A stretch of 64,000 nt of DNA. It comes from an uncultured Microbacteriaceae bacterium. Its GTDB lineage: Bacteria; Actinomycetota; Actinomycetes; Actinomycetales; Microbacteriaceae. The notes under the pieces were generated by a model. The model made no database searches and was not told where the DNA came from. It worked only from the letters and a program-made list of their open reading frames with translations. The DNA is taken from the NCBI GenBank assembly GCA_947487835.1, contig CANKXX010000002.1, forward strand, positions 248,001 through 312,000. Direction: 5' to 3'. A program made the position numbers and the translations under genes. This document shows positions 18,812 through 62,980 of this stretch, in pieces (the stretch's first letter is position 1; each line of letters opens with the position of its first letter).

Positions 18812-19672
18812 CGTCCCTTTGACAGCCTTGGGGACCGAAGTGGTGCCGTCGGTCTGCATTAGCAGTTCTCGAGAGCTTCGCGAGCAGCGACGATATGTGG
18901 ATGGTGTCACGCGCGGTCCGCGGCCGTCGCGAACACGGTCGTTCCCCACATGGTCGTTCCCCACACGGTCGCTGAGCCAGCGGTCGCTGAGCTTGTCGAA
19001 GCGACGCAGGCCGACCTCGCGTCCCCTCGACAGGCTCACGGACCGAGGTGGTGCCGTCGCTCTGCACTGGCCGTTCCCGAGAGCTTCGCGAGCAGCGACG
19101 ATGATGCGGATGGTCACCGCGCCGAGGCGGGTAGGCGTCCCGTACACGGTCGTTCCCCTCACGGGCGCTGAGCCAGCACGGTCGCTGAGCCACCACGGTC
19201 GCTGAGCTTGTCGAAGCGACGCAGGCCGACCTCGCGTCCCTTCGACAGGCTCACGGACCGAGGTGGTGCCGTCGGTCGGCGCTGGCCGTCCACAAGAGCT
19301 TCGCGAGCAGCGACGATATGTGGATGGTCACCGCGCCCAAGCGGGCAGGCGTCCCGTACACGGTGATCCCGTACACGGTCGCTGAGCCCACACGGTCGCG
19401 AGCCAGCACGGTCGCTGAGCTTGTCGAAGCGACATGCGTCGACCTTGTGTCCCTTCGACAGGCTCAGGGACCGAGGTGGTGCCGTCGGTCGGCGCTGGCC
19501 GTCCACAAGAGCTTCGCGAGCAGCGACGATGATGCGGATGGTCACCGCGCCCAGGCGCGCAGGCGTCCCGTACACGGTGATCCCGTACACGGTCGCTGAG
19601 CCCACACGGTCACTGAGCTTGTCGAAGCGACGCGAGCCGACCCTCCGTCCCTTCGACAGGCTCAGGGACCGC
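18812..19672. repeat. Tandem array of ~210-bp units with REP-like hairpins
   Basis: Four units begin at 18812, 19021, 19236 and 19449 (periods 209, 215, 213) and a fifth partial one at 19647. Each starts with a GTCCCTTCGACAGG-type hairpin and continues through GAGCTTCGCGAGCAGCGACG. It then has a variable stretch rich in GTCCCGTACACGGT and ends with GGTCGCTGAGCTTGTCGAAG in the opposite sense. The first unit is the most decayed. Open frames across the array follow the repeat period and are not genes. The array lies directly downstream of the DUF222-HNH gene; a single related unit lies in the same place beside the second copy at 58.8 kb. Confidence 0.92.
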
Positions 19673-19712
19673 GAAATCGGCCTTTCGTCGAGTGGGTGCG
19701 GCGGAAGCACGG

Positions 19713-21179
19713 TCATCCTCCTGGTGGCGGCGGCTCGGGTGGATGAGCCGAGGCTCGGTCGTGCTGCTGCGGGCGGTGTCGGCGGAGGTTCCAGTCCTGG
19801 ACCGCTCTGCTCTTCGTCGCCAGGTGTCTGCCCTCTCGGGTCGGGCTAATGGATCTCGGCGGGACCAGCGTGTACGTCCCACCGGTTCTGGTGATGTCCC
19901 AGCCGCGGTTGTGCAGGAGCAGGTGGTGGTGCTTGCAGAGAAGGACGCCGTCGGCGATGTCGGTCTTGCCGTGGTCCCGTTTCCACTGGTTGATGTGGTG
20001 CGCCTCGCACCAGGACGGCGGTCTGTCGCAGCCCGGCCACATGCAGCCACCGTCCCGTACCGCGAGGCCGGTCCGTTGGCGGGCGGTGAAGAGGCGTTGT
20101 TCGCGTCCGACGTTGACGCACTGGCCGTCGTCGTCGAGGACCACGGCGATGGTGCCGGTGGTGCATATCTCGCGGCGGATGGTGTCGATCGAGACGGCCT
20201 CACCGGTGTCTTGGATCGACCCGTGACCCTCGCCCGACTGCAGAGACTCGCGGGTCACTATTACCCGCACCGCCGGCCTCCGTGACCCGTAGACCTGGCC
20301 GGGGTCGGCGTCTGCGCCGATGCGGAGGAGTTCGAGGAACCCGTCGGCGGCGAGGCGGTCGGTGGAGCGTGGGTCTGTCGCGATGGCGTCGATGCGTGCG
20401 CGGTCCTCTTCCTTCACGAACCGCGGCCCGCCTCGGCGGGGGTTGGTGAGCTCGTCCAGGACGGAGAGCAGGAAGGCGCCGGGTTCGGGTGCATAGAGGA
20501 ACTTGCCTTCCACCATGCCGTCCGCGCGCTTCCACGCCTTCAGGTGCTGTTGGTCGAGTTGGGCCTTCTCTCGGTCGGCCACCTCGGTGTCGTCCAGGTC
20601 GTCACGAAATTGCCGGGCACGGCGGTGCAGTTGACCCGCGGTCAGCGTCATGGCGTCTTCGAGGAGCTCCGACGCCGCCTCGCGCAGCGCCTCCGGCGGA
20701 ACGGCGTCCGTGGGCAGACCCAAGCCGGCTCGGATAGCGTCCGCCTGCGCGATGGAGATTCGCCCGTCCGTGACCGCGTGAGCAATGGGTGCCTGCCATG
20801 GTGTGGGCGGTGCGGGAAGTTCTGGGTGCTCGCGCTGCAGGATTTCGACGGCGTCCGTCTCGGCGAGCATCTTGCCCACCTCCACGATCGAGACCGCGCC
20901 ACCCTTCGTCACGCCCGTCACCGCTTCGACCATCGCCTGGGGCGTCCGGTAGCCCTCCTGCTGCGCCAGACCGTTCGAGCCGAGGTCGGTGCTCGACCGT
21001 CGGTCCAGCTCACCCGCAATCCAGGCGGTGAAGGTGTCGCAGCACTGTCTGAGGTCGGCGATAGCGTGCAGCGCGTGAACGAGGTCCTGCTTCGGGAGCG
21101 GCGCGAAATCCGCGGGGGAGTTGCCCAGGCGTGCGACCGCATCCGCTGTGCGGAGGAGCGTCGTCGCCGGGTTTCTCAT
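19713..21179 (-). CDS. DUF222 domain HNH endonuclease, copy 1
   Basis: A 488-residue protein with an N-terminal helical DUF222 region (about 1-330) and a C-terminal HNH nuclease domain: C379 and C384 (CMWPGC), H394-H395 (CEAHHINQW), C415, H417-H419 and H423-N424 (LHNRGWDI). The four Cys/His positions fit a zinc-ribbon-supported HNH core. The second copy at 59103-60569 has the same length and differs at about 41 residues by hand count, none in the HNH core. The ATG at 21179 is preferred over one 9 bases upstream because the -10 box overlaps the upstream one. The family is abundant in actinobacteria (the 13E12 repeat group) and its role is not known. Confidence 0.92.
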   Translation of the reverse strand: MRNPATTLLRTADAVARLGNSPADFAPLPKQDLVHALHAIADLRQCCDTFTAWIAGELDRRSSTDLGSNGLAQQEGYRTPQAMVEAVTGVTKGGAVSIVEVGKMLAETDAVEILQREHPELPAPPTPWQAPIAHAVTDGRISIAQADAIRAGLGLPTDAVPPEALREAASELLEDAMTLTAGQLHRRARQFRDDLDDTEVADREKAQLDQQHLKAWKRADGMVEGKFLYAPEPGAFLLSVLDELTNPRRGGPRFVKEEDRARIDAIATDPRSTDRLAADGFLELLRIGADADPGQVYGSRRPAVRVIVTRESLQSGEGHGSIQDTGEAVSIDTIRREICTTGTIAVVLDDDGQCVNVGREQRLFTARQRTGLAVRDGGCMWPGCDRPPSWCEAHHINQWKRDHGKTDIADGVLLCKHHHLLLHNRGWDITRTGGTYTLVPPRSISPTREGRHLATKSRAVQDWNLRRHRPQQHDRASAHPPEPPPPGG

Positions 21180-21186
21180 AGCACAC

Positions 21187-21224
21187 ATTCTACCAGGTAG
21201 AAAGTTTCTTCGACGAAGAACTTT
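21187..21224 (-). promoter_or_regulatory. Leaderless promoter and dyad of the DUF222-HNH gene
   Basis: On the minus strand TAGAAT (complement of 21187-21192) lies 7 bases before the ATG, predicting a leaderless mRNA. Upstream, AAAGTTTCTTCG (21201-21212) and CGAAGAACTTT (21214-21224) form an inverted repeat with one bulged base. The same two elements precede the second copy at 60577-60614 with few changes, so they are conserved parts of the module. A repressor or autoregulator site is likely. Confidence 0.65.
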
Positions 21225-21274
21225 CGTCCTGTGGAGAACTCGTGGCCGGTAGGGCTGTGGCTCGACCGGGTCGC

Positions 21275-21406
21275 GTCCCTTCGACAGGTTCAGGGACCGT
21301 GGTGGGTCGGTGCGCCCGCGGGTGGCGGGCGGCCCGTCGGCAGGCTCAGGACCGTGGGTGATCGCGTTTCGGGCGCGAGTAGGTGTGATTCCTGAGCCTG
21401 CCGACG
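21275..21406. repeat. REP hairpin and 17-bp inverted repeat downstream of SIS gene
   Basis: A REP-like hairpin occupies 21275-21297. Then CGTCGGCAGGCTCAGGA (21335-21351) and its exact reverse complement (21390-21406) form a 17-bp perfect inverted repeat with a 38-nt loop. Each arm is a variant of the REP core, so this is a pair of REP elements in opposite orientation. It lies 47 bases past the stop of the SIS-domain gene and could end its transcript. Confidence 0.8.
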
Positions 21407-36547: not shown

Positions 36548-36855
36548 CCCATCACGGTCCCTGAGCTTGTCGAAGGGACGTAACGCCGCTGCGGTTGCAC
36601 TGAGCGGCTGATGCACGCAGCGCAGGCTCCGGCACCTCCGCGACGGTAACCGTTCCCGGATCGCCGCGCCGCCCCCTGTGAGGGAGCCTGCGTTGGTTAC
36701 GCGGCTGGCCTGCATTCAGCACCCACGCTGCCCTGAGCCTGACCCATCACGGTCCCTGAGCTTGTCGAAGGGACGTAACGCCGCTTCGGCAGGCTCAGCG
36801 ACCGCGTGGGTGCGTCCCCGGGGTGGCGTGTGTCGCTTCGGCAGGCTCAGCGACC
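36545..36855. repeat. REP-like elements and an exact 46-bp duplication
   Basis: A 46-bp sequence starting with TGACCCATCACGG occurs at 36545-36590 and exactly again at 36740-36785. Each copy contains a REP hairpin (36557-36579, 36752-36774). Two further REP variants with CTTCGGCAGGCTCAGCGAC lie at about 36783-36803 and 36834-36855. The stretch 36548-37036 holds no supported gene. Confidence 0.85.
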
Positions 36856-58796: not shown

Positions 58797-59062
58797 CCAC
58801 GGTCGCTGAGCTTGTCGAAGCGACGGGAGGCGGCGTCGCGTCCCTTCGACAGGCTCAGGGACCGAGGTGGTGCTGCCGGTCCGCGCTGGTCGTTCCCAGG
58901 AGCTTCGCGAGCAGCGACGATGATGTGTGCGGCCCGGTTCCCGAGGCTCCTTCCGTCACGTGTGATCGCTGATCACACACGGTCGCTGAGCCCATACCGT
59001 CGCTGAGCTTGTCGAAGCGACGTGCGTCGACCTCGCGTCCCTCCGACAGGCTCAGGGACCGT
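58797..59062. repeat. REP-like hairpins with one ~197-bp repeat unit
   Basis: One unit of the type tandemly repeated at 18.8-19.6 kb runs from 58840 to the next hairpin at 59037 and includes the same GAGCTTCGCGAGCAGCGACG and inverted GCTGAGCTTGTCGAAG segments. An extra hairpin starts at 58799. Within it TGTGATCGCTGATCACA (58969-58985) is a clean 17-bp palindrome absent from the other copies. It lies just downstream of the second DUF222-HNH gene. Confidence 0.9.
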
Positions 59063-59102: not shown

Positions 59103-60569
59103 TCAGCCTTTCGGTGGGGCCGGTTCGAGTGGATGGGCAGGTGCTCGGTCGTGCAGCCGGAGGCGGTGGCGACGGGCGTTCCAGTCCTGGACCGCCCTGC
59201 TCTTGGTCGCTAGGTGCCTTCCCTCTCGGGTCGGGCTGATCGACCTCGGTGGGATCAGCGTGTACTGCCCGCCGGTTCTCGTGATGTCCCAGCCGCGGTT
59301 GTGCAGCAACAGGTGGTGGTGTTTGCAGAGCAGGACACCGTCGGCGATATCGGTCTTGCCGTGGTCTCGTTTCCACTGGTTGATGTGGTGTGCCTCGCAC
59401 CAGGACGGTGGTCGATCGCAGCCGGGCCACATGCAGCCGCCATCCCTCACCGCGAGTCCTATGCGTTGGCGGGCAGTGAAGAGGCGTTGTTCGCGTCCCA
59501 CGTTGACGCATTGGCCGTCATCGTCGAGGACCACGGCGATGGTGCCGGTGGCGCAGATCTCGCGTCGGATGGAGTCGATCGAGACCGCCTCGCCGGTGTC
59601 CTGGATCGAGCCGTGGCCTTCGCCGCTCTCGAGTGACTCCTTGGTCACGATCACCCGGACCGCCGGCCGCCGCGATCCGTAGACCTGGCCCGGGTCGGTG
59701 TCCGCACCGATGCGAAGGAGTTCGAGGAAGCCGTCCGCTGCGAGGCGGTCGGTCGAGCGCGGGTCTGCCGCGATCGCGTCGATGCGCGCCCGGTCCTCTT
59801 CCTTGACGAAGCGCGGGCCACCCCGACGCGGATTCGTCAGCTCGTCGAGCACGGACAGGAGGAATGCTCCCGGCTCGGGGGCGTACAGGAACTTACCCTC
59901 GACCATGCCGTCCTGGCGCTTCCAGGCCTTGAGGTGCTGCAGTTCGAGCTGCGCCTTCTCTCGATCCGCTACTTCGGTGTCGTCGAGGTCATCGCGCAGT
60001 TGCCGTGCGCGGCGGTGCAGTTGTCCTGCTGTCAGGGTCGCGGCGTCTCCGGTCAACTCGATCGCAGCCTCGGACAGCGCCTCGGGTGACACCGAGTCCG
60101 TGGGCAGACCCAAGCCGGCTCGGATGGCATCCGCCTGAGCGATGGAGATGCGCCCATCTGTCACCGCGTGCGCGATCGGTGCTTGCCACGGAGTCGGTGG
60201 CGCCGAAAGCTCGGGGTGCTCGCGCCGCAGGGTCTCCACCGCGTCCGTCTCGGCGAGCATCTTGCCCACCTCGATGATCGACACTGCGCCGCCCTTGGTG
60301 ACTCCTGTCACCGCTTCGACCATCGCCTGAGGCGTTCGGAAGCCCTCCTGCTGAGCCAGCCCGGCCGAGCCGAGGTCGGTCGTCGACCGACGGTCGAGTT
60401 CTCCCGCGATCCAGGCGGTGAAGGTGTCGCAGCACTGTCTCAAGTCGGCGATAGCCTGCAGCGCGTGCAGGAGGTCCTGCTTCGGCAGCGGGACAAATGC
60501 GGCGGGGGAGTCGCCCAGGCGTGCGACCGCATTCGCTGTGCGGAGGAGCGTCGTCGCCGGGTTTCTCAT
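59103..60569 (-). CDS. DUF222 domain HNH endonuclease, copy 2
   Basis: The same 488-residue protein as at 19713-21179, differing at about 41 residues by hand count, all outside the HNH core (CMWPGC, CEAHHINQWKRDHGK, LCKHHH, LHNRGW). Differences cluster at the N-terminus, around 155-180 and at the extreme C-terminus. Identical length with no indels or stops argues that both copies are under selection. The same leaderless promoter layout precedes it, and REP-like repeats flank both ends. A mobile or dispersed repeat-associated nuclease is the simplest view. Confidence 0.92.
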   Translation of the reverse strand: MRNPATTLLRTANAVARLGDSPAAFVPLPKQDLLHALQAIADLRQCCDTFTAWIAGELDRRSTTDLGSAGLAQQEGFRTPQAMVEAVTGVTKGGAVSIIEVGKMLAETDAVETLRREHPELSAPPTPWQAPIAHAVTDGRISIAQADAIRAGLGLPTDSVSPEALSEAAIELTGDAATLTAGQLHRRARQLRDDLDDTEVADREKAQLELQHLKAWKRQDGMVEGKFLYAPEPGAFLLSVLDELTNPRRGGPRFVKEEDRARIDAIAADPRSTDRLAADGFLELLRIGADTDPGQVYGSRRPAVRVIVTKESLESGEGHGSIQDTGEAVSIDSIRREICATGTIAVVLDDDGQCVNVGREQRLFTARQRIGLAVRDGGCMWPGCDRPPSWCEAHHINQWKRDHGKTDIADGVLLCKHHHLLLHNRGWDITRTGGQYTLIPPRSISPTREGRHLATKSRAVQDWNARRHRLRLHDRAPAHPLEPAPPKG

Positions 60570-60664: not shown

Positions 60665-60831
60665 GTCCCTTCGACGAGCTCAGGGACCGTAGGGATGGCG
60701 GCTTTGAAGAAACGGTGGGTCCCTTCGACAGGCTCAGGGACGTAGGGCGGGCGGCCTCGGAGAAACAGTGCGTCCCTTCGACAGGCTCAGGGACCGTGGA
60801 GTAGCAGCTCCCTTCGACAGGCTCAGGGACC
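60665..60831. repeat. Four REP-like hairpins before the gamma-glutamyltransferase gene
   Basis: Four copies of the GTCCCTTCGACAGGCTCAG-type element in the same orientation begin near 60665, 60719, 60773 and 60806. Stretches with GAAACAGTG or GAAACGGTG separate the first three. They fill the space between the second HNH gene and the secreted enzyme gene; no coding sequence is supported there. Confidence 0.85.
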
Positions 60832-62904: not shown

Positions 62905-62980
62905 ACGGGCGCTGAGCCTGTCGAAGCGACGTGGGTGGCCTCGCGAGGTGCGCCGCGCCCCTTCGACAGGCTCAGGGACC
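62905..62980. repeat. Two REP-like elements after the gamma-glutamyltransferase gene
   Basis: A GCTGAGCCTGTCGAAGCGAC-type copy (about 62908-62930) and a CCCTTCGACAGGCTCAGGGA-type copy (about 62957-62979) face each other between two convergent genes. They could act as a bidirectional terminator. Confidence 0.8.

Follow-up and report, generated by a model that had tools for sequence, protein, structure and literature searches.

A multicopy family of DUF222-HNH nuclease genes bracketed by hairpin repeats in a Planctomonas-like bacterium

Why should two nearly identical nuclease genes, each accompanied by similar small repeats, lie less than 40 kb apart in one genome? The question arose from a 64,000-nucleotide stretch of an uncultured Microbacteriaceae bacterium (contig CANKXX010000002.1 of assembly GCA_947487835.1, positions 248,001 to 312,000), hereafter the window. 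An earlier note, made from the sequence alone, had proposed that a DUF222-HNH nuclease and a structured repeat form a self-contained dispersed element in which the nuclease travels with, or acts on, the repeat. Several scenarios may explain such an arrangement. The nuclease could act on the repeat, the genes could be old paralogs beside which unrelated repeats have lodged, the module could be a conventional transposon, or the repeats could be regulatory. To evaluate these possibilities, we examined the two genes, their relatives in the same genome, and the corresponding loci in other species.

The observation itself is confirmed, and it is larger than first described. Copy 1 (19713-21179) and copy 2 (59103-60569) are both on the minus strand, 37.9 kb apart, and encode proteins of 488 aa that share 447 of 488 residues (92%) and the same HNH core. 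Both match Pfam DUF222 (PF02720) at 82.5 and 77.3 bits, over the curated cut-off of 24.4; the match of copy 1, scored on a stretch three codons longer, has an E value of 4.6e-23. DUF222 was the only Pfam match, and no NCBIfam match was found. In an alignment of 24 relatives, C384, H394, H395, and N397 are invariant and C379, C415, H418, and H419 are nearly so, as expected for a C-terminal HNH domain. A search of PDB by sequence gave one meaningless hit, and a predicted model (mean pLDDT 71, with the HNH part poor) matched no PDB fold at E 0.001.

The 5' region of copy 1 (21187-21225, minus strand) contains a TAGAAT box (21187-21192) located 7 nt before the ATG, which by inference is leaderless, and the dyad GAAAGTTCTTCGTCGAAGAAACTTTC (21200-21225). 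The earlier note described this region as shared, and it is: among the 16 intact copies of the same clade in this genome, TAGAAT stands 7 nt before the ATG in 15 (the locus L037 has CAGAAT), and the dyad is recognizable in all 16, although its left half varies. On the 3' side of copy 1, the repeats extend over 18813-19669 as four +/- hairpin doublets, at 18983(+)/19021(-), 19198(+)/19236(-), 19411(+)/19449(-), and 19609(+)/19647(-), plus a degenerate ninth arm at 18813(-). Copy 2 has two doublets in 58802-59059, at 58802(+)/58840(-) and 58999(+)/59037(-), rather than the single unit reported previously. The unit length of about 200 bp given in the note is local, since spacing among loci of this clade ranges from 102 to 404 bp and is mostly 160 to 290 bp. 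What the note missed is that repeats in the opposite sense also lie upstream of each gene, so the gene is bracketed. Copy 1 has one at 21275-21297 and a weak one, with 5 mismatches, at 21331 (together 21275-21353, minus strand), and copy 2 has an array of four at 60665, 60719, 60772, and 60808 (60665-60830, minus strand). Two free-standing hairpins on the plus strand (36557-36579 and 36752-36774) lie away from any DUF222 gene, and a free-standing +/- pair lies at 62908-62979. No Rfam family was found in the window.

The note also missed that the genome holds 35 or more further copies of the gene. A search of the 3.9-Mb, 32-contig assembly gave 37 DUF222 matches, which fall by their HNH core into clade A (16, including both window genes), clade B (8), and clade C (12), with one truncated gene, L045. 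Two more clade A copies are broken across contig ends. The assembly breaks inside clade A modules, at ends of contigs C1, C2, and C4, so copy number from draft genomes is underestimated.

The repeat core is a 6-bp stem (GTCSCT and AGSGAC) around the loop GAGCYTGTCGA, with CG before it and G after it. Allowing up to 3 mismatches, we found 458 sites in the genome (229 on each strand) and 0 for the reversed control pattern. A search with the exact loop gave 110 distinct copies in the loci of this genome, in which stem pair 3 is C-G or G-C and is paired in 93%, compared with 54% expected if the two sides were independent. The same pair covaries in Planctomonas deserti (93% versus 58%) and Planctomonas psychrotolerans (94% versus 73%), and in a genome of another genus (G023) pair 6 also covaries (9 distinct copies, 89% versus 42%). 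The other stem pairs hardly vary. Folded as DNA, single arms scored z values of -3.0 and -2.6 and one doublet -5.1. Pairing and loop are kept while some stem letters change, which favors recognition of a folded strand, although that step is an inference.

Next, we determined how the repeats are placed relative to the genes. Between -2200 and +900 of the 37 stop codons, which is 2.9% of the genome, there are 189 repeats with up to 3 mismatches (overlaps were removed, so the ratio to 458 is approximate). Upstream sites are in forward sense in 67 of 69 cases, while downstream 63 are reversed and 55 forward, in clade A mostly as +/- doublets. A forward repeat upstream and a reversed repeat downstream occur at 33 of 37 loci; the exceptions are L019, L022, L025, and the truncated L045, which has both but outside our cut. 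In two contigs and part of a third, 54 of 100 perfect sites lie within 1.3 kb of 18 DUF222 hits that cover 3.8% of the sequence (binomial p 3e-49). Yet 46 are elsewhere, five of them within 1 kb of contig ends. In a P. deserti stretch (L071, 6884-6970), a sequence of about 83 bp matches this genome at many places, in several on both strands, and is probably a second palindromic repeat family; whether it is tied to any gene was not examined.

To evaluate whether the module travels, we compared loci between species. P. deserti 13S1-3 has 38 DUF222 matches, of which 37 stretches were analyzed. Of our 37 loci, 32 have both flanks at the same P. deserti locus, all on the same side and in the same orientation, 3 match on one flank, and 2 (L019 and L045) match on none. 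Two apparent empty sites between these genomes, sought with L071 and L077, were rejected because the flanks sit at contig ends carrying element fragments, so the copies exist here too. No insertion polymorphism was found between these two closest species, with L019 and L045 unresolved. Independent insertion at the same places would have to match place and orientation 32 times.

Although the loci are shared, the genes cluster by genome. In clade A flanks, positional partners are 79-91% identical in 100-bp bins and non-partners about 56-64%, whereas inside the module the two are equal. Over the gene, clade A partners (14 pairs) are 81.5% identical, non-partner cross pairs 81.6%, and copies within this genome 85.2%. 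The partner ranks on average 9.6th of 16 (random 8.5), and the nearest copy is in the own genome in 16/16 and 16/16 cases; across these pairs, the genes keep no memory of which locus they sit in. Clade B (7 pairs) gave a rank of 3.6 (random 4.0; permutation p 0.07), with 8/8 and 7/7. Clade C (11 pairs) keeps some locus memory, with a rank of 4.2 (random 6.0; p 0.012) and 12/12 and 10/11. In B and C, these traces are mostly at the gene ends. Linkage among clade A copies falls to the unlinked value within about 15-60 bp in this genome and about 120 bp in P. deserti; clade B comes close at longer range, and clade C stays above it. A star-like burst could mimic low linkage, but it cannot make shared loci lose their partners. 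These patterns are gene conversion inside fixed loci. Homology between paralogs begins near -1600 and fades around +400 in clade A and near the stop codon in B and C, close to the repeats. The dN/dS values of 0.09, 0.11, and 0.20 in A, B, and C indicate purifying selection.

Turnover is seen at greater distance. P. psychrotolerans J5903 has 25 DUF222 matches and 741 repeats. Of 20 loci examined, 8 have arms on both sides, 9 upstream only, and 3 none, and none of 7 clade A loci has a downstream arm. Positions differ from ours: in a comparison limited to 7-kb stretches, 1 of 20 loci is possibly shared, namely L093, which lies near our L034 but about 2 kb further from asd, while others share a neighbor gene on another side or in another orientation. 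The note had named the comparison of loci with and without the module as a way to find its ends, and empty sites without a clean boundary as evidence against it. We saw one clean absence. Behind the tig terminator, this genome and P. deserti carry the module, while in P. psychrotolerans the two flanking aligned stretches (tig side and clpP side) are 232 bp apart instead of 2429; the exact ends were not defined there, nor could a target-site duplication be, and the comparison does not distinguish gain from loss. The L034 query was no test of an empty site, since both matched flank genes lie on one side and a clade A gene lies about 2 kb further on, and the two flanks of L027 fall about 600 kb apart in P. 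psychrotolerans. At the place of our L017, that species has a repeat array and no nuclease gene, and between the aspartate kinase gene and asd it has 8 repeats where the other two species have none. Repeats and genes can each be gained or lost, the direction being unknown. Arrays of the same core with 23-bp and about 35-bp periods and no nuclease gene in the stretch (L151, 1823-1985, and L152, 898-1210) suggest that tandem growth of the repeat is common in this species, where a clade B gene (L087) also has on both sides a near-identical inverted repeat of about 118 bp, different in sequence from the hairpin core.

A closer association of DUF222-HNH genes with the repeat in related genomes had likewise been put forward in the note as the criterion for its proposal. 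Among 40 genomes (this one and 39 relatives), 28 have DUF222 genes. This repeat is abundant only in three Planctomonas and G023 (458, 741, 604, and 168 sites; 0-2 in the other 36); all four have DUF222 genes, but 24 of the 40 have such genes without this repeat in numbers. In G023, 9 of 9 loci carry it, 4 with a forward repeat upstream and a reversed one downstream. Two further genera, represented by G009 and G013, share an unrelated palindromic repeat, GCTGCCGCGCNCTNCGNGCTTGCC. By eye, a stem is suggested by the change GCCC/GGGC to GCGC/GCGC, yet the G009 arm does not fold better than shuffles (z 0.20). In G009, 14 of 14 repeat matches lie at DUF222 genes. Of 8 loci examined there (12 DUF222 matches in the family search), 8 have the upstream arm, 6 a clear downstream arm, and L199 a weak one; in the three inspected in sequence, the upstream arm lies inside the 5' coding part, so it may be kept for the protein. 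In G013, 13 of 15 matches are at DUF222 genes; the repeat is present, on one side only, at 8 of 9 loci chosen without regard to it, plus L208, which was chosen because of it. The other 38 genomes have 0-1 matches.

In the remaining groups sampled (G003, G004, G008, G010, G011, G018, G022, G025, G028, G031, G033, Arthrobacter, Microcella, Salinibacterium, and three MAGs; 1-6 loci each), we saw no convincing bracket. These negatives are weak: counting inverted or direct sharing, the de novo scan for flanking repeats finds all 12 sampled loci of this genome, but on inverted matches alone it misses 5 of 12, and it missed G013 and L168. Its null (265 pairs) reached 24, close to the G009 scores of 23-25.5, so the G009 claim rests on the genome-wide pattern search. 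L181 is marginally above the 99% null, and L187, from G031 in another family of the order, has a long direct duplication (score 83.5) flanking the gene. Where paralogs could be compared in these groups, homology mostly stops near the gene ends. The association is thus not general, and the coupling is lineage-restricted or arises repeatedly. Overall, the earlier interpretation is partly supported: the nuclease is tied to a structured repeat and the module has edges, but that it travels is not supported as stated, since between this genome and P. deserti it is sequence that moves, by gene conversion.

We tentatively favor a REPtron-like module. The sequences directly demonstrate the bracketed architecture, the covarying stem pair with its fixed loop, purifying selection on the nuclease, shared loci between two species with homogenization within each genome, homology that ends near the repeats, and a similar coupling in three further genera, two of them with an unrelated repeat. 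The activity, in contrast, is inferred: in this view, the HNH nuclease recognizes the repeat, perhaps extruded or single-stranded, and nicks or breaks DNA there, and repair copies another module across, with repeats and gene body as homology. This would homogenize existing copies and, rarely, place a copy into a repeat array elsewhere, an intragenomic form of homing. Such a cycle would explain why edges lie near repeats, why copies blend, why arrays and gene occur together, and why repeats exist without the gene. Neither binding nor cutting, including that of an unoccupied site as expected of a homing endonuclease, was assayed here. The 46 perfect repeats away from DUF222 genes, the 24 genomes with DUF222 genes but without this repeat in numbers, the incomplete brackets in P. 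psychrotolerans, the traces of locus identity in clades B and C, and the poor folding of the G009 arm count against this reading. The weak point is that within a genome the repeat follows the host and not the nuclease clade. On the protein tree, A, B, C, and G023 are separate, yet A, B, and C share one repeat, and L162 of G013, grouped with clade C relatives, shares its repeat with L163 and L164 of G013, which group with G009. Either any clade can act on the local repeat, or the repeats spread by other means.

Passive conversion of old paralogs is a serious, if less likely, rival. In that scenario, the genes have another job, were amplified long ago, and are homogenized by ordinary RecA gene conversion, which could act on 85%-identical paralogs with no nuclease, while the hairpins are REPs spread by another enzyme, for example a RAYT, that lodged beside them. 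The distribution of the repeat on the protein tree, the many free-standing repeats, and the arrays that come and go without the gene agree with it. Yet the regular sense of the repeats at 33 of 37 loci, the concentration of matches at DUF222 genes in G009 and G013, and the edges of homogenization near the repeats argue against it; the genomes were not searched for a RAYT. A conventional insertion sequence, with DUF222-HNH as a transposase acting on terminal inverted repeats, is unlikely. Inverted arms are present in this genome and, at 24-28 bp, in G009, one place lacks the module in P. psychrotolerans, and positions differ between that species and the other two. The observations at that one place leave target-site duplication and recent insertion undecided, however, the loci are fixed between this genome and P. 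deserti, and no transposase family was matched. No phage record and 5 plasmid records match by protein, none over 80% of the query, which fits a chromosomal resident. It is also unlikely that the family is a stress- or defense-related nuclease whose copies give dosage, with the repeats as terminators or operators. The shared dyad and promoter and the strong purifying selection are compatible with this, but there was no PADLOC or PHROGs match, and the repeats also occur far from the genes and in long arrays.

Among known systems, the REP-RAYT REPtron (REPIN-RAYT, TnpA-REP) shares small hairpin repeats in high copy, inverted doublets, arrays, and a nuclease gene bordered by the repeats. It differs in its HUH (Y1) enzyme, in the conserved GTAG at the foot of the hairpin, where here the conserved flanks are CG before the stem (94-95%) and G after it (84%), and in having in most cases one nuclease gene (PMC8266576) instead of 37 or more. 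Moreover, here several nuclease clades share one repeat, unlike co-evolving RAYT/REP pairs, and the copies undergo concerted evolution. By domain, the family is that of the mycobacterial REP13E12, or 13E12 repeat family, a repetitive element named together with HNH and DUF222 (PMC10589994), and one plasmid relative is annotated "13E12 repeat family protein." No bracketing hairpin is described in the text we consulted. REP13E12 has a link to prophage phiRv1, which was not tested here. HNH homing endonucleases share the nuclease type and the proposed break-and-copy spread, but the present system would act within one genome on a dispersed repeat, without intron or intein. CGTC-tagged REPs are dispersed palindromes for which no dedicated transposase was found (PMC3733652); that text does not contain the word actinobacteria, and no relation was tested. 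MSMEG_1275, an HNH nuclease that cuts mycobacterial DNA (PMC9416677), was not tested for DUF222 and is not used here. PMC9569102 and PMC12046097 gave nothing on point. In literature searches that did not extend to most subscription journals, no listed title or abstract opening named a hairpin repeat with DUF222, and three repeat-core strings returned no papers.

The DUF222 family has no assigned function in Pfam, and a repeat that brackets its genes gives a concrete substrate. If the nuclease acts on it, REP spread is not tied to HUH chemistry, and there are at least two enzymatic routes to the same genome architecture. A bolder possibility, held more tentatively still, is that DUF222-HNH proteins are a second, HUH-independent class of REP-associated nucleases that recognize hairpin repeats and drive an intragenomic homing cycle, keeping dozens of dispersed nuclease genes recombining like alleles of one freely recombining population inside a single chromosome. 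The concerted evolution seen across the 14 clade A locus pairs is notable in itself.
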